Source: Klenkia taihuensis (GTDB lineage: Bacteria > Actinomycetota > Actinomycetes > Mycobacteriales > Geodermatophilaceae). Taken from it: DNA of 64,000 bases. Position 1 is the first letter of the stretch; each line of letters starts with the position of its first letter. Location: the NCBI RefSeq assembly GCF_900112525.1, contig NZ_FOMD01000001.1, positions 1 to 64,000 of the forward strand. Reading direction: 5' to 3'. Made by a program: the position numbers and the translations under genes. The notes below the pieces were generated by a model that saw nothing but the letters and a program-made list of their open reading frames with translations, ran no database searches and was not told where the DNA came from. Positions 5,489 to 48,379 of this stretch are shown here, piece by piece.

Positions 5489-6592
5489 GTGCCTGCACCC
5501 ATCGAGGTCCGCAAGGTCCCGCTGCACAACGTCAGCGACGCCTCCGAGCTGGCCAAGCTCATCGACTCCGGCGTCATGGAGGCCGACCGGGTCGTCGCCG
5601 TCATCGGCAAGACCGAGGGCAACGGCGGGGTGAACGACTACACCCGCATCATCGCCGACCGCGCCTTCCGCGAGGTCCTCATGGAGAAGGGCAGCCGCTC
5701 CAAGGAGGAGGTCGCCGACATCCCGATCGTGTGGTCCGGCGGCACCGACGGCGTCATCAGCCCGCACGCCACCATCTTCGCCACGCTGCCCGAGGACTCG
5801 GTCGAGAAGACCGACGAGCCCCGCCTGACCGTCGGCTTCGCGATGAGCGACGTGCTGCTGCCCGAGGACATCGGCCGCATCTCGATGGTGGAGAAGGTCG
5901 CCGAGGGCGTGAAGCGCGCCATGGCCGAGGCCGGCATCACCGACCCCGCCGACGTGCACTACGTGCAGACCAAGACCCCGCTGCTGACCATCGAGACCAT
6001 CCGCGACGCCAAGTCCCGCGGCGAGGACACCTACTACGACGAGCCGCACGGCTCGATGGACCTCTCCAACGGCACCACCGCGCTGGGCATCGCCCTGGCC
6101 CTCGGCGAGATCGAGCTGCCGAAGCAGGAGCAGGTCATGCGGGACCTCTCGCTGTACTCCGCCGTCGCCTCCTGCTCGTCGGGCGTCGAGCTCGACCGCG
6201 CGCAGATCGTCGTCGTCGGCAACGCCCGCGGCCACGGCGGCGCCTACAAGATCGGCCACTCGGTCATGAAGGACGCCCTGGACCAGGACGGCATCTGGGA
6301 CGCCATCCGCCAGGCCGGCCTGGACCTGCCCGAGCGCCCGCACGTCTCCGACCTCGGCGACCGGCTGGTCAACGTCTTCCTCAAGTGCGAGGCCGACCCG
6401 ACCGGCTACGTCCGCGGCCGCCGGAACGCGATGCTGGACGACTCCGACGTGTTCTGGCACCGCCAGATCAAGGCCACCGTCGGCGGCGTCGCCGCCTCGG
6501 TGACCGGCGACCCGGCGGTGTTCGTCTCCGTCGCCGCCGTCCACCAGGGCCCCTCGGGCGGCGGTCCCGTCGCCGCCATCATCAAGGCCTGA
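5489..6592 (+). CDS. Ring-opening amidohydrolase, probable barbiturase
   Basis: Protein of 367 aa of the cyanuric acid hydrolase/barbiturase family, a fold of three repeated units each with a Ser-Lys pair. Candidate lysines are K41 ([10 protein letters not shown]), K162 (VQTKTPLL) and K299 (FLKCEAD). Candidate serines are S83 (VWSGGTDG), S230/S231 (CSSGVELD) and S356 ([11 protein letters not shown]). Length is typical. The family hydrolyses either cyanurate or barbiturate. The shared operator with a uracil-type permease and a molybdenum hydroxylase favours barbiturate to ureidomalonate in oxidative pyrimidine breakdown. GTG start with AGAAGGAG about 7 bases upstream. A strong hairpin ends the operon. 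Confidence 0.88.
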
Positions 6593-13547: not shown

Positions 13548-13568
13548 GCCGCGACGCTACCGCGGAAG

Positions 13569-13586
13569 TATCTCAGCGGTGAGAGA
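13569..13586. promoter_or_regulatory. Shared palindromic operator, site 2 (before fdrA)
   Basis: TATCTCAGCGGTGAGAGA matches the shared consensus. It stands 9 bases upstream of the probable fdrA -10 (minus strand). It is one arm of a long inverted repeat with site 3 (13564-13636). Confidence 0.7.
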
Positions 13587-13613: not shown

Positions 13614-13631
13614 AGATTTAGCGCTGAGGTA
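13614..13631. promoter_or_regulatory. Shared palindromic operator, site 3 (before uracil permease)
   Basis: AGATTTAGCGCTGAGGTA matches the shared consensus. Six bases further, TAGTGT (13638-13643) mirrors the fdrA -10 box and would start the permease operon near 13650. That leaves a leader of about 88 bases before the permease ATG, unlike the leaderless promoters at the other sites. Confidence 0.68.
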
Positions 13632-13737
13632 CTTCCGTAGTGTCGGTGGTCGGTGTCACAGTGGCCGCGCCCGGCGGGATCGTGCCCACCGGAGAGCGCC
13701 CGCGGCCGGCTGAGGCCGCACCGAGCAGGAGGACGTC

Positions 13738-22422: not shown

Positions 22423-22516
22423 CAGCGTTGATCAGGGGAGTTGATCCACGTCCGTCCTGGTGCACGAGATCTGGTGAACCAGGACGGAGTTCGATCAACC
22501 TCCCTGATCAACGCTG
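22423..22516. repeat. Interspersed palindromic repeat, complete copy
   Basis: A 94-base imperfect palindrome centred on AGATCT (22468-22473). Each arm runs from CAGCGTTGATCAGGG through GTTGATC to CGTCCTGGT. The outer half-arm is almost identical to the right arm of the element at 61588-61653. It lies between convergent genes, so it could also terminate transcription. No encoded protein. Confidence 0.8.
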
Positions 22517-24954: not shown

Positions 24955-25074
24955 GGTACCAAGCATGGCGGATGCCGCCGGTAGCTGCAACCCCGGGACA
25001 CGTCTTCCCGCACGGACTGTGACCCAACCCTCATCCGGGTCCGATGTTCTGACGTGGACGTCTTCCGCTGGAAA

Positions 25075-25092
25075 TACCTCAGCGCTAAGTTA
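25075..25092. promoter_or_regulatory. Shared palindromic operator, site 4 (before hyuA)
   Basis: TACCTCAGCGCTAAGTTA agrees with the shared consensus at nearly every position. Its right half contains a plausible -10 (TAAGTT, 25086-25091) ending 7 bases before the hyuA ATG, so the operator would overlap the -10 of a leaderless promoter. Confidence 0.7.
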
Positions 25093-43400: not shown

Positions 43401-44822
43401 TCAGGCCGCCCGCTGCGGCGCGTGCCGGGTCGGCTCCCGGTACAGCGGGTACAGCTCGCCGACCGTGCGCGCGACCGCGGCGACGTCCAGCCAGGCCGGG
43501 CCGCCCACCCGCTCGGTGGCCTCGGGGGTGAGCACCACCGGCCGCCGGTCCCCGGACGGCGCCCCCAGCCCGACGAGGTCCGACCCGCGGTCGAGCAGCC
43601 GGCGCAGCACCCGCTCGCCGATCCGGCCGTAGGACAGCGTCTCCACCTCGAGCCCCGGCACCAGCACCTTGGCCACGTGCACGTCGCCGACGCGGACGGG
43701 GGCGACCAGCAGGTCGAACCCGGCCAGCCGCTCCCGGTACAGCGCCAGGGTGTCGGCGGGCCCGGTGACGGCGGAGGTCGGCAGGTCGGCGAAGGCCACC
43801 TCCGAGGTGCGCCGCCACATCGGGGCGAGCAGCCCGTCCAGCTGCGCCGCCGTCAGCCCGTCCCACGCCGTCATCGCGGCCAGCGCGCGCTCCTCCTGCG
43901 GCGGCAGCGGGACGGCGAGCTCGGCGGCCAGGTAGTCCGGGTGCAGCGCGCGGACCCGGTCCAGCGGGCCGAACGCGAACGCCCGCCGGGCCCGGGAGGA
44001 GGCCAGCTCCAGCACCGCCTTGCGCACCGCCTCCGCCCGGTCGGGGGCCGCGGCCTCCCCGACCGCGCTGAGCACCACCGGCGGGTCGGCGGCGGCGTCG
44101 CGGGCCACCGCGTGCACGACGACGGCGAACTCGGTGCTGTCCAGCTTCACGGTGACGTCGAGGCCGGCGGCGGCCAGCGCGTCGAGCAGCGCCACGGTCT
44201 GCGGGTCGTCGATGCCGGTGACCACCCGGCCGGTGTCCAGGGCGCGGAAGTCGACGGTGTCGCCGTCGCGCTGCAGCAGCTCGCCGATGCCGTGCGCGAC
44301 CGCCCGCTCGGCGGTGTCCCCGGCGCCCATGCCGTTGGTGATCGGGGTGACCAGCCAGCCCCCGGGGGGCGGGTCGGCCGCGATCCCCCCGGCGTGCGGG
44401 GCGACGAACTCGGCGGGGACCAGCACCTCCTCGCCGGTCGCCCAGCGGGTGGTGGGCAGCCAGCGCAGCGGCCGGTCGGGGTCGGCGCCGGCCGGCAGCA
44501 CCAGGGTGCGGGGGTCGGCCACCCGGTCGGCGCCGCGCTCGGCGACCAGCTCGCGGTGCGTGGCCGTGCGTGGTTCCACGTGGAGCAGTGCGTCGTCCAG
44601 CAGCACCTGCTCGGCCAGCTCGCCCCACGCGCCGATGGCCGCGGCGGCCTCCGTGGCGCCGTAGCCGACGCCGTGGCCGGACCGGGTGCCGTCGGCGGAG
44701 CGCCAGACCGTGGCCACGACCGGCACGCCGGTGCGGTCGTACGCGCGCAGGTCCAGCTCGGTGGTCCAGCCCTCGGGCAGGGATGCGCGGTAGGCCGCCG
44801 CCGGGTCGGTCACCCGTGCCAC
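43401..44822 (-). CDS. YcaO-domain protein
   Basis: Protein of about 473 aa (470 if the GTG at 44813 is used). The YcaO ATP-binding pattern is clear: GMGAGDTAERAVAHGIGELLQRD, with the conserved glutamates and the ExxxR-D element, and later RRTSEVAFADLP and a C-terminal Pro-poor tail. YcaO enzymes use ATP to activate amide carbonyls (azoline or thioamide formation) or, as in E. coli YcaO, assist RimO. No RiPP precursor, TfuA or cyclodehydratase partner is adjacent. Operator site 5 lies 55 bases upstream, placing it in the nucleobase regulon. The exact start is uncertain because no ribosome-binding site is visible. Confidence 0.82.
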   Translation of the reverse strand: MARVTDPAAAYRASLPEGWTTELDLRAYDRTGVPVVATVWRSADGTRSGHGVGYGATEAAAAIGAWGELAEQVLLDDALLHVEPRTATHRELVAERGADRVADPRTLVLPAGADPDRPLRWLPTTRWATGEEVLVPAEFVAPHAGGIAADPPPGGWLVTPITNGMGAGDTAERAVAHGIGELLQRDGDTVDFRALDTGRVVTGIDDPQTVALLDALAAAGLDVTVKLDSTEFAVVVHAVARDAAADPPVVLSAVGEAAAPDRAEAVRKAVLELASSRARRAFAFGPLDRVRALHPDYLAAELAVPLPPQEERALAAMTAWDGLTAAQLDGLLAPMWRRTSEVAFADLPTSAVTGPADTLALYRERLAGFDLLVAPVRVGDVHVAKVLVPGLEVETLSYGRIGERVLRRLLDRGSDLVGLGAPSGDRRPVVLTPEATERVGGPAWLDVAAVARTVGELYPLYREPTRHAPQRAA

Positions 44823-44876
44823 TGTGCCCGGCGCCGCCGTGACCCGCTCGTGGACTGGACTGACTCCACCGGGTGA

Positions 44877-44894
44877 TCTCTCAGCGCTGAGGCA
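44877..44894. promoter_or_regulatory. Shared palindromic operator, site 5 (before ycaO-like gene)
   Basis: TCTCTCAGCGCTGAGGCA contains the perfect 12-base core CTCAGCGCTGAG of the shared consensus. It lies between the divergent ycaO-like gene and the small gene at 44998 and could serve either; a TGGAGT -10-like box (44868-44863, minus strand) stands 8 bases downstream on the ycaO side. Confidence 0.65.
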
Positions 44895-44997
44895 TGTGTT
44901 CCCCATTGACGGGCATCCCCGGCTGCGAACACCGTGTACCCACCCGTTCCAGCACCGGCCGGGTCCGGGTGGCGGTGGACGGAGACGAGGAGAAGAC

Positions 44998-45324
44998 GTG
45001 GAGTCGTTCGTGACCTGCGCGGTCGTGGAGACCGACCTGCGGCACGCCTTCGAGGTGGGCGTGGCGCTGCGGCTGGAGGCCCCCGAGGGCACCGCCGTCC
45101 GCGAGGACCCGCACGTGCCCGAGGTGTTCTACCTCGAGGCCACCACCGCCGCGGCCGACGTGCAGCGCGCCGTGGCCGCCGCCGCGCAGTCGACCACCAC
45201 CCTGCTGGCCGGGCTGGACCTGCCGGCCGAGGTGCACGAGGTCGTCGTCCTCTCCCTCGACGGCGCGGTGCACTGGGTGCCCGACGTCGACGCCGCCCTC
45301 CCGGCCGGCGAGAGCTCGCACTGA
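44998..45324 (+). CDS. Hypothetical protein (108 aa)
   Basis: GTG start with GAGGAG 7 bases upstream. The sequence begins MESFVTCAVVETDLRHAFEV and is acidic, with a regular alternation that suggests an alpha/beta fold; no family is recognised. It is divergent from the ycaO-like gene with the shared operator between them, so it may belong to the same regulon. The good ribosome-binding site and GC-rich third codon positions support a real gene. Confidence 0.65.
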   Translation: MESFVTCAVVETDLRHAFEVGVALRLEAPEGTAVREDPHVPEVFYLEATTAAADVQRAVAAAAQSTTTLLAGLDLPAEVHEVVVLSLDGAVHWVPDVDAALPAGESSH

Positions 45325-45921: not shown

Positions 45922-47034
45922 GTGCGCGTCGGCATCCCCAGCGAGATCAAGGACAACGAGCAGCGGGTCTCCCTGCAGCCCGACGGCGCGGCCGAGCTGG
46001 TGCACCACGGGCACGAGGTGCTCGTGCAGTCCGGCGCCGGGACGGGCTCCCGGTTCACCGACGAGGAGTACGCCGCCGCCGGCGCCCGGGTGGTGGCCGA
46101 CGCCGACGCCGTGTTCGCCGAGGCCGACCTGGTGGTCAAGGTCAAGGAGCCGGTGCCCGCGGAGTACCACCGCTTCCGCGAGGGCCAGCAGCTGTTCACC
46201 TACCTGCACGCCGCCGCCGACCGCTCGCTGACCGACTTCCTCCTCGAGCGGCGGATCGACTCCATCGCCTACGAGACGGTGCAGACCGCCGACGGCCGGC
46301 TGCCGCTGCTGACCCCGATGAGCGAGGTCGCCGGCCGGATGGCCGTGCAGGCCGCCGCGCACCACCTGGAGAGCCCCGCCGGCGGCGCCGGGATCCTCAT
46401 GGGCGGCGTCCCCGGCACCCCCGCGGCCAAGGTGACCATCATCGGCGGCGGCGTCTCCGGCACCGAGGCGGCCAAGATCGCGGTCGGCATGCGGGCGATC
46501 GTGCGCGTCTTCGACACCAACCCCGCCCGGCTGGCCTACCTCTCCGACGTCTTCGAGGGCCGGCTGGACCTGGTGCAGCCCAACCGCGCCCGGCTCGCGC
46601 AGTACGTCGCCGACTCCGACGTGCTCATCGGCGCCGTGCTGGTGCCGGGCACCAAGGCCCCCAAGCTGGTCAGCCGCGAGATGGTCGCCTCGATGCGGCC
46701 GGGCAGCGTCGCCGTGGACATCGCCATCGACCAGGGCGGCTGCTTCGAGACCAGCCGGCCCACCACGCACTCCGACCCGACCTACGTCGAGGAGGGCGTC
46801 GTGCACTACTGCGTGGCCAACATCCCCGGCGCGGTCGCCCGCACCTCCACCCTCGCGCTGACCTCGGCGACCCTGGCCTACCTGGTCACCGTCGCCGACT
46901 CCGGGATCCGCGGCGCGGCGGCGTCCTCGCCGGTGCTGGCCAAGGGCCTCACCAGCCTGGGCGGGCAGCTGACCAGCGAGCCGGTCGCCGCCGCGCACGG
47001 CCTGCCGTGGACCTCAGCCGCCGAGCTGCTCTGA
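45922..47034 (+). CDS. ald: Alanine dehydrogenase
   Basis: Protein of 370 aa, the family's usual length. It begins VRVGIPSEIKDNEQRVSLQP, has the pyruvate-site lysine and histidine (KVKEPVPAEYH, FTYLHAAADR) and the NAD loop GGGVSGTEAAKIAVGM. It interconverts alanine with pyruvate and ammonia using NAD. GTG at 45922 chosen because AGGAGG stands 5 bases before it and the N-terminus matches the family. Its 3' end overlaps the marR-type gene on the other strand by 21 bases. Confidence 0.95.
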   Translation: MRVGIPSEIKDNEQRVSLQPDGAAELVHHGHEVLVQSGAGTGSRFTDEEYAAAGARVVADADAVFAEADLVVKVKEPVPAEYHRFREGQQLFTYLHAAADRSLTDFLLERRIDSIAYETVQTADGRLPLLTPMSEVAGRMAVQAAAHHLESPAGGAGILMGGVPGTPAAKVTIIGGGVSGTEAAKIAVGMRAIVRVFDTNPARLAYLSDVFEGRLDLVQPNRARLAQYVADSDVLIGAVLVPGTKAPKLVSREMVASMRPGSVAVDIAIDQGGCFETSRPTTHSDPTYVEEGVVHYCVANIPGAVARTSTLALTSATLAYLVTVADSGIRGAAASSPVLAKGLTSLGGQLTSEPVAAAHGLPWTSAAELL

Positions 47035-47541
47035 CGTCTCCCGGTCGGGGACCCGGCCCAGCGCGACGAGGAACCGGCGCAGCAGGTCGGCCAGCTGCTC
47101 CCGCTCCTCGGCGCTGAGGCCGGCCAGCATGCCGTGCTCGGTGTCCAGGTGGTCGGGCAGCGCGGTGTCCAGCGCGGTGCGCCCGGCCTCGGTCAGCGTG
47201 ACGACGACGGCCCGCCCGTCGGCCTCGCTGCGCTCCCGGGTGATCAGGCCCTTCTCCTCCAGCCGGTCCAGCCGCTGGGTGATGGCCCCGCTGGTGACCA
47301 GCGCCGTGCGCATCAGCGCCGTGGGCGTCAGCTGGTAGGGCTCCCCGGCCCGGCGCAGCGCGGCAAGGACGTCGAAGGACGGCGCGTCCAGGCCGTGCCG
47401 GGCGAAGGTGGCCCGCTGGGCCAGGTGCACCTCGCGCTGCAGCTGGGAGATGCGGCCGATGATGCCCATCGGCGAGCAGTCCAGGTCGGGGCGCTCCCGG
47501 GCCCACTGCGCCAGGATGGTGTCCATCGCGTCACCGGTCAT
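47014..47541 (-). CDS. MarR-family transcriptional regulator, candidate regulator of the shared operator
   Basis: Protein of 175 aa. The winged helix-turn-helix is PYQLTPTALMRTALVTSGAI then RLDRLEEKGLITRERSEADG. An N-terminal helical extension (AQWARERPDLDCSPMGIIGRI) carries the Trp and Asp/Arg residues seen in urate- or metabolite-responsive MarR proteins of the HucR/UrtR group. It is co-transcribed with an NmrA-like gene (ATGA overlap), and that operon is headed by operator site 6, the most symmetrical copy of the shared palindrome. Autoregulation from such a site is usual for MarR proteins, so it is the best candidate to control all six sites. ATG with GAGGAGG 8 bases upstream. Confidence 0.9.
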   Translation of the reverse strand: MTGDAMDTILAQWARERPDLDCSPMGIIGRISQLQREVHLAQRATFARHGLDAPSFDVLAALRRAGEPYQLTPTALMRTALVTSGAITQRLDRLEEKGLITRERSEADGRAVVVTLTEAGRTALDTALPDHLDTEHGMLAGLSAEEREQLADLLRRFLVALGRVPDRETSEQLGG

Positions 47542-48356
47542 GCCGCGACCTCCTCGAGGTGCTCGGCGTAGGTGCGGGGCGGCCGGCCGAGCAGGTCGGT
47601 GAGCACCCGCGGGCTGCCGGTGAACCCGTGCGCCCGGTAGTGGTCGAGCATCGTGCGCAGGCAGCGGCCGGCGTAGTCGTCGCGCTCGGGGGCCCGGGCG
47701 TCGACGGCGGTGACCGGGCGGCCCAGCCGCTGCGCCATGGCCGCCGCCACGTCGCGCGCGGTGAGCGCGGCCGGCCCGACCGCCTCGAAGGTGCCGCCGT
47801 CCAGGCCGTCCTCGGTGAGCAGCACGGCGGCGGCGTCGGCGACGTCCCGCAGGTCGACGAAGGACTGCGCCTGCACCAGCCCCCAGGCGCTGCGCAGCTC
47901 GCCGGTGGCCGCCGCGGTGGCCAGCGCGGCGTCGAGGTTGTCGGCGTAGGCGCAGGGCTGCAGCACCCGCCACGGCACCCCGGCGGTGTCCAGCGCCTCC
48001 TCGGCGCGGTCCTTGGCCGCGTGGTGCGGCATCGAGCGCAGCTGCGGGCGCAGCACCGAGTGGTAGACCACCCGGCCCACCCCGGCGGCGCGGGCGGCGC
48101 GGAAGGCGGTCGGTGCGCCGGCGGCCTCGGAGGGCTCGAAGTTCGGCCAGATCAGGTACAGGGCGTCGGCGCCGCCGAGCGGCAGGCCGCCCGGGTCGCC
48201 GACCAGGTCGGCCACCACCACCTCCGCGCCCAGGCCGTCCAGCTCCGGGCGCGGGCGCCGGCTGCCGACCACGGCGCGCACCTGCTCCCCGCGGGCCCGC
48301 AGTGCGCGGACCACCGCCGTCCCCGTGCTGCCCCCGGCCGCCGTCACCACGATCAC
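47538..48356 (-). CDS. NmrA-like NAD(P)-binding protein
   Basis: Protein of 272 aa, atypical SDR (NmrA/QOR2-like). The N-terminal Rossmann loop is VTAAGGSTGTAVVRALRARG, and DALYLIWPNFEPSEA and YHSVLRPQLRSMPHHAAKDRAEEAL follow the family pattern. Such proteins bind NAD(P) and often reduce quinones or sense redox state. The GTG start at 48356 is 6 bases from operator site 6, implying a leaderless transcript. It overlaps the marR-type gene. A role in the nucleobase regulon is possible but not visible from sequence. Confidence 0.83.
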   Translation of the reverse strand: MIVVTAAGGSTGTAVVRALRARGEQVRAVVGSRRPRPELDGLGAEVVVADLVGDPGGLPLGGADALYLIWPNFEPSEAAGAPTAFRAARAAGVGRVVYHSVLRPQLRSMPHHAAKDRAEEALDTAGVPWRVLQPCAYADNLDAALATAAATGELRSAWGLVQAQSFVDLRDVADAAAVLLTEDGLDGGTFEAVGPAALTARDVAAAMAQRLGRPVTAVDARAPERDDYAGRCLRTMLDHYRAHGFTGSPRVLTDLLGRPPRTYAEHLEEVAA

Positions 48357-48361
48357 CCGCT

Positions 48362-48379
48362 TACCTCAGCGGTGAGGTA
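48362..48379. promoter_or_regulatory. Shared palindromic operator, site 6 (before NmrA-MarR operon)
   Basis: TACCTCAGCGGTGAGGTA is symmetrical at 16 of 18 positions and is the best match to the shared consensus. Its distal half (GAGGTA on the minus strand) could double as the -10 of a leaderless promoter for the NmrA-like gene. Confidence 0.75.

Follow-up and report, generated by a model that had tools for sequence, protein, structure and literature searches.

Stand-alone YcaO enzymes and purine-responsive regulators of the MarR family are the described systems closest to the locus presented here. According to PMC13063428, the YcaO protein of Escherichia coli thioamidates ribosomal protein uL16 in an organism that has no TfuA. 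HucR and PecS are described in PMC5487221 and PMC6391409 as MarR repressors that respond to urate or xanthine. The open-licence literature that we searched yielded no paper joining YcaO to barbiturase, nor one joining YcaO to the genus Klenkia.

The DNA analyzed here is a stretch of 64,000 nucleotides, referred to as the window, from the 4.3 Mb genome of Klenkia taihuensis; its relevant features are listed in Table 1. The YcaO gene encodes a stand-alone protein of ~470 amino acids (aa) and has its start codon at position 44813 or 44822 and its stop at 43401. The neighboring open reading frame, which encodes a protein of 108 aa, is oriented divergently. The preliminary description of this DNA had placed the two genes on either side of a perfectly palindromic site, and both the coordinates and the reading on the two strands were confirmed: the 12 bp sequence CTCAGCGCTGAG, identical on both strands, lies between the genes, at a distance of 66 bp from position 44813, the YcaO start, and of 118 bp from the start of the 108-aa gene. 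For comparison within the genus we used nine Klenkia genomes, these being the window genome, K. brasiliensis, Klenkia sp. PcliD-1-E, K. terrae, K. soli, K. marina, a metagenome-assembled genome (MAG) that is 73% complete (G082), and genomes G080 ('Modestobacter sp. Leaf380') and G079.

Table 1. Positions within the window of the genes and of the observed or candidate regulatory sites.
Feature	Position	Strand	Remarks
Barbiturase/cyanuric acid hydrolase family gene	5489..6592	+	PF09663, E 6.7e-147; in 9/9 Klenkia genomes
fdrA-proximal operator of the divergent fdrA/uraA promoter region	13568..13583	+	Match to the extended pattern
uraA-proximal operator of the divergent fdrA/uraA promoter region	13617..13632	-	GTACCTCAGCGCTAAA, in 9/9 Klenkia genomes
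Operator between AurF-like gene and hyuA	25074..25089	+	K. marina locus L130 is arranged likewise
YcaO gene	43401..44813	-	PF02624, 138.1 bits against a cut-off of 25.7, E 5.6e-40; YcaO fold; dN/dS 0.12-0.43 against 8 Klenkia orthologues
Operator core CTCAGCGCTGAG	44880..44891	.	Perfect palindrome; extended match at 44880-44895 on the minus strand
-35-like sequence TTGACGGGCA	44906..44915	+	Between the operator and the 108-aa gene; identical in 5/6 aligned upstream regions
108-aa protein gene	44998..45324	+	In 7/9 Klenkia genomes; predicted ferredoxin-like fold; fast evolving
MarR-family regulator gene	47014..47541	-	Candidate operator-binding protein; putative function from PDB sequence matches
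Palindrome TACCTCACCGCTGAGGTA, operator type	48362..48379	.	In front of the NmrA-MarR gene pair; 12 bp core conserved

Within the window, the 12-mer was matched 14 times when up to two mismatches were allowed, compared with a mean of 6.8, and 2 out of 100 shuffles reached 14. This enrichment is mild and, taken alone, weak evidence. The extended pattern RTRYYTCAGCGNTRAR, scored on both strands at palindromic places, matched five times in the window genome and two to six times in each of the nine Klenkia genomes; because its design relied on sites known beforehand, some of them in these genomes, the counts are not fully independent. The reversed control gave no match in any of the nine. Among 112 genomes of the family, 78 contained a match to RTRYYTCAGCGNTRAR and the control was zero in every row. 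The GTACCTCAGCGCTAAA site is accompanied by a second match at a distance of 49 bp in eight of the nine Klenkia genomes. In eight genomes it also shares a contig with the barbiturase gene, no more than 10 kb away; in the incomplete genome G082 the two are on separate contigs. The surrounding genes encode FdrA, AllG, a uracil/xanthine permease and subunits of a molybdenum hydroxylase, a context that was read in two of the nine Klenkia genomes, namely in the window and, going by similarity of the encoded proteins, at locus L144 of K. marina. Judged by this comparative evidence, the operator and the nucleobase-degradation regulon are real, in agreement with the preliminary description, which took the palindrome for an operator common to nucleobase-degradation genes.

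In seven of the nine Klenkia genomes an operator also separates an amidase-like gene from a GNAT-like one (loci L041, positions 60-2028, L103, L104, L108, L109, L115 and L123). The window genome's own copy of this amidase belongs to the PRK07486 subfamily, and the gene is a ureidomalonase candidate. In three Klenkia genomes an operator lies between tandem genes and a further gene that, going by their sequences, we take to be ABM-like and Nei/Fpg-like (DNA glycosylase), respectively (L106 1501-1516, L116 1501-1516 and L143 2599-2618).

The operator may be bound by a protein encoded 2 kb away. The MarR-family protein matches PDB sequences 8ylf (E 6.9e-38), 8ylh (E 3.3e-34) and 2fbk (E 1.2e-17), of which we take 2fbk to be HucR, and its N-terminal QWxxERPDLD stretch is common to 8ylf and 8ylh. 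The PDB codes 8YLF, 8YLH and 8YLM appeared in no paper found in the open-licence literature. The MarR gene forms a pair with an NmrA gene (47014-48379), and the palindrome TACCTCACCGCTGAGGTA covers the presumed promoter of this pair. The 12 bp core, CTCACCGCTGAG, is identical in all six Klenkia regions read, while the flanks vary in three of them. The likeness to HucR and PecS thus consists of the match to 2fbk together with an operator-type palindrome in front of the regulator's own gene pair. Combined with the ligands described for HucR and PecS, these features make a purine-responsive, autoregulated MarR protein of the PecS/HucR type a good hypothesis for the regulator that governs the regulon. 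Such a protein would probably repress its targets until a purine-type ligand binds.

The preliminary description had put both genes flanking the palindrome under its control. For the 108-aa gene this part of the claim stands. The gene is present in seven of the nine Klenkia genomes, one of the two that miss it being G082, and the operator is kept upstream in six of these seven carriers, including genomes in which YcaO is located elsewhere. In five carriers the upstream 12-mer has no or one mismatch; in K. soli it is found at the aligned position with 3 out of 12 positions mismatched. No operator is present upstream of the copy in G080. As a measure of chance, 44 out of 3000 random 184 bp stretches of the window, stretches over real sites included, showed zero or one mismatch. 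The -35-like sequence TTGACGGGCA, on the 3' side of the operator, is changed in K. marina, the exception among the six aligned upstream regions, and is a candidate -35 promoter box of the 108-aa gene.

Searches with the 108-aa protein gave no Pfam hit above the cut-off and no NCBIfam hit at E 0.01. Among the rows listed, with 12 candidates scored per genome, none of the remaining 393 genomes in a class-wide sample of 394 gave a match; within the searches made, the protein thus appears to be found only in Klenkia. Its AlphaFold2 model (pLDDT 86.4) has a predicted ferredoxin-like fold. No PDB structure matched this model with an E value up to 0.001; the best match had E 7e-3, and structures of the antibiotic-monooxygenase type were among the best, weak, matches. 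The dN/dS ratio ranges from 0.45 to 1.3 over five orthologues. We regard the 108-aa gene as a conserved member of the operator regulon, its product having a predicted ferredoxin-like fold. Similarity of the 108-aa protein to the operator-linked ABM-like proteins was looked for and not found in a comparison with one such protein, taken from a single genome among the three Klenkia concerned (hhalign probability 0.2%). In G080 the diverged 108-aa copy is followed by a Nei/Fpg-like gene, at a locus lacking the operator (L142 3933-5124).

The results obtained for YcaO are different, and the part of the claim that concerned this gene fell. YcaO is present in all nine Klenkia genomes, the other eight copies being 82-96% identical to that of the window. 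An operator within ~80 bp upstream of it was found in just three genomes, those of the window, K. brasiliensis and Klenkia sp. PcliD-1-E, and there it has one mismatch at most. No operator was present within 300 bp of YcaO in the other six, where the best 12-mer has three to five mismatches. The gene preceding YcaO varies too: it encodes AsnC in K. terrae and K. soli and an aquaporin (MIP) in K. marina, and other genes occupy this position in the remaining three. At locus L047 it is a GGDEF gene according to Pfam. Membership of YcaO in the nucleobase regulon, as proposed in the preliminary description, is therefore not supported by these upstream regions, and we rejected YcaO as a conserved regulon member.

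The arrangement in K. marina is informative. Here the operator sits between the 108-aa gene and a pair formed by a 67-aa gene and the aquaporin gene, and is separated from YcaO by 1.35 kb containing this pair and a strong hairpin. The 67-aa gene, the aquaporin gene and YcaO are on one strand, all running away from the operator. The hairpin, located between aquaporin and YcaO (L046 10557-10683), has GTCCTGGCTCAC arms and a 13 bp stem in the computed fold. An inverted repeat resembling it is present in the window near 22440-22500.

Sequence and model agree on the nature of the YcaO protein. The AlphaFold2 model (pLDDT 79.9) gave 41 PDB matches with E values of 0.001 or less. The titles of all these entries name a YcaO, a heterocyclase or a microcin synthetase, and the Methanocaldococcus jannaschii YcaO structures 6peu and 6pe3 were on top. 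As sequence patterns, motifs of the types G-x-G-Y-G, G-E-x-x-E and E-x-L-Q-R are invariant in 16 aligned YcaO rows. The dN/dS ratios (Table 1) indicate that Klenkia YcaO is a conserved protein under purifying selection, and its Pfam domain and fold make it an ordinary stand-alone member of a known, amide-activating family. The cut-offs of models for particular reactions were not reached. The best NCBIfam score, 91 bits, was obtained for TIGR03266 (thioamidation of McrA glycine; cut-off 365), and TIGR03604 (TOMM/SagD cyclodehydratase) scored 70.3 against a cut-off of 219.25 bits. A C-terminal PxPxP is the motif of the azoline-forming cyclodehydratases of the TOMM/SagD type; the Klenkia protein ends in ...LYREPTRHAPQRAA and does not have it. 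No E1-like protein was found among the window neighbors scanned. The lack of a TfuA partner, already pointed out in the preliminary description, extends to the whole genus: TfuA (PF07812), and with it the TfuA-dependent route to thioamides, was absent from all nine Klenkia genomes, the positive control being found in M. acetivorans.

The archaeal stand-alone YcaO MJ1094 (6pe3/6peu) is the sole entry that a sequence search of the PDB returned at E 0.001 (its own E value is 1.3e-10) and also the best fold match. We take MJ1094 to be of the McrA-thioamidating type, the type of the best-scoring NCBIfam model as well. The window protein differs from archaeal McrA-type YcaO in being bacterial, in scoring far under the TIGR03266 cut-off and in belonging to a genus without TfuA. 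With E. coli YcaO it shares the absence of TfuA, acidity (computed pI 4.96) and slow evolution, but the E. coli-type model NF040716 did not match it at E 0.01. Because the nearest solved relative is of the thioamidating type and E. coli YcaO thioamidates uL16 without TfuA, the Klenkia enzyme is probably thioamidating. By analogy with its family, phosphorylation of a backbone amide oxygen would open the way for a nucleophile, most likely sulfide, which would yield a thioamide on a conserved host molecule.

Outside Klenkia, YcaO is found in another setting. A match was present in 42 of the 112 family genomes, comprising the nine Klenkia, 32 others with long matches, and a weak partial match in G103 that was left out of the linkage count. 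In all 32 non-Klenkia genomes a gene for a zinc-ribbon metallo-beta-lactamase-like (MBL) protein is located at most 131 bp upstream of YcaO. With these genomes as positive control, this gene was found in none of the nine Klenkia genomes. A set of 40 named loci, largely overlapping the family genomes, gave a similar picture. MBL adjoins YcaO in 29, of which 26 also match all of Gfo/Idh/MocA, TIM barrel, GT4 and PIG-L; it is not beside YcaO in seven Klenkia-type loci and in L069, L079, L087 and L097, of which L079 ends inside YcaO. The conserved set of methyltransferase, Gfo/Idh/MocA, zinc-ribbon MBL, YcaO, TIM barrel, GT4 and PIG-L genes occurs in Geodermatophilaceae and in a MAG of the Frankiaceae; Kineococcus and a MAG of Pseudonocardia have it too, except that one part gave no match (examples are L055 4604-13585, L098 1-6513 and L096 246-7967). 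No NCBIfam model scored over its cut-off for the cluster proteins scanned from L096 and L098.

The operator is not part of this setting. The extended pattern RTRYYTCAGCGNTRAR matched in four of the 40 named loci, all from Klenkia, and in none of the 33 loci outside the Klenkia type. A shorter form of the operator matched at two of the latter, within the next gene at L069 and ~5 kb away at L080. This short motif was absent from all twelve 20-kb YcaO regions of other genera, and it is these regions that show no operator near YcaO in G106 and G111. Among the places listed, no contig with a non-Klenkia YcaO has an operator closer to that gene than ~91 kb (G048). Examination of homologue neighborhoods, the check that the preliminary description itself had put forward, thus gave the result that it had named as refuting: homologues in the family outside Klenkia are located with another gene set and, in the YcaO regions read, lack the full operator. 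Its suggestion that YcaO matures an enzyme of the pathway likewise found no support, as homologues outside Klenkia sit in the MBL-linked cluster.

How then can the position of YcaO be explained? If YcaO truly belonged to the nucleobase regulon and modified one of the pathway enzymes, for instance by thioamidation or cyclization near the active site, its distance from the palindrome in the window and the near-perfect palindromes in K. brasiliensis and PcliD-1-E would be accounted for, as would the joint presence of barbiturase and YcaO in 9/9 Klenkia genomes, on one contig in five. On these contigs, however, the two genes are ~30-162 kb apart, and a proximity of at least ~30 kb is a loose one. 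With six of nine genomes lacking a nearby operator and an unrelated cluster housing YcaO in other genera, we regard such a role as quite unlikely. It is more improbable still that YcaO acts on the 108-aa protein or together with it, in a divergent pair resembling a RiPP precursor and its enzyme. The genes are adjacent and divergent in three genomes, and the protein is small and fast-evolving with a T-C-A-V-V stretch near its N terminus that is invariant in the alignment, all of which would suit a precursor. Against this, YcaO occurs without a 108-aa match in two of nine Klenkia genomes, G082 with its 73% completeness being one, on which ground we rejected the partnership; moreover, the genes are not adjacent in 4/7 carriers, the confident folded model is unlike a leader-core peptide, and no 108-aa match is seen beside YcaO at loci of other genera.

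A further possibility is that Klenkia YcaO performs the same small-molecule reaction as the YcaO of the glycosyltransferase/PIG-L/MBL cluster, its partners having been lost or replaced. The two share ~50% identity over their full length, and the cluster enzyme of Geodermatophilus, Blastococcus, Modestobacter and Kineococcus has constant neighbors, MBL foremost. In a tree of 27 rows, however, YcaO of Klenkia, Quadrisphaera sp. INWT6 and MAG M60 forms a separate clade with support 100/99, MBL was found in none of the nine Klenkia genomes, and none of five cluster partners has a match within the window. We consider a shared reaction unlikely, though somewhat less so than the two readings above. 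We also tentatively entertain the idea that YcaO enzymes of this family act outside RiPP chemistry. In the sister clade, MBL, embedded in a cluster for glycosyltransferase, PIG-L deacetylase, TIM-barrel and sugar-oxidoreductase proteins, would then be a new kind of YcaO partner in a small-molecule pathway that perhaps leads to a thioamide or thiol-glycoside, and Klenkia YcaO would be a stand-alone derivative.

The explanation that we favor, and hold to be probable, is that the operator works for the 108-aa gene and that YcaO is an unrelated stand-alone ATPase brought beside it. The operator would then be a working site of the nucleobase-degradation regulon with the 108-aa gene as its conserved local target, whose putative -35 box would lie 14 bp downstream of the operator. 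Since the aquaporin and 67-aa genes separate YcaO from the operator in K. marina, loss of these genes in the lineage of the window genome may have put YcaO beside the operator. An operator-adjacent YcaO is limited to three closely related species, and any effect of the operator on YcaO in the window genome would be a recent side effect. Some observations speak against this explanation. The site is 66 bp from the YcaO start, an operator that is a palindrome can act in both directions, and the three species with the site at this place have kept it; in K. marina, read-through from the 67-aa and aquaporin genes into YcaO is possible despite the hairpin; and the 108-aa gene evolves fast, is missing from two genomes and has a copy in G080 without operator.

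In summary, a gene's position next to a perfect operator does not in itself show that function is shared, and it is the comparison of nine congeneric genomes that parts the target from its neighbor. What is gained for Klenkia is a nucleobase regulon together with a candidate for its regulator. A more interesting lead comes from the sister genera, in which an uncharacterised YcaO clade has a strictly linked, hydrolase-like partner.
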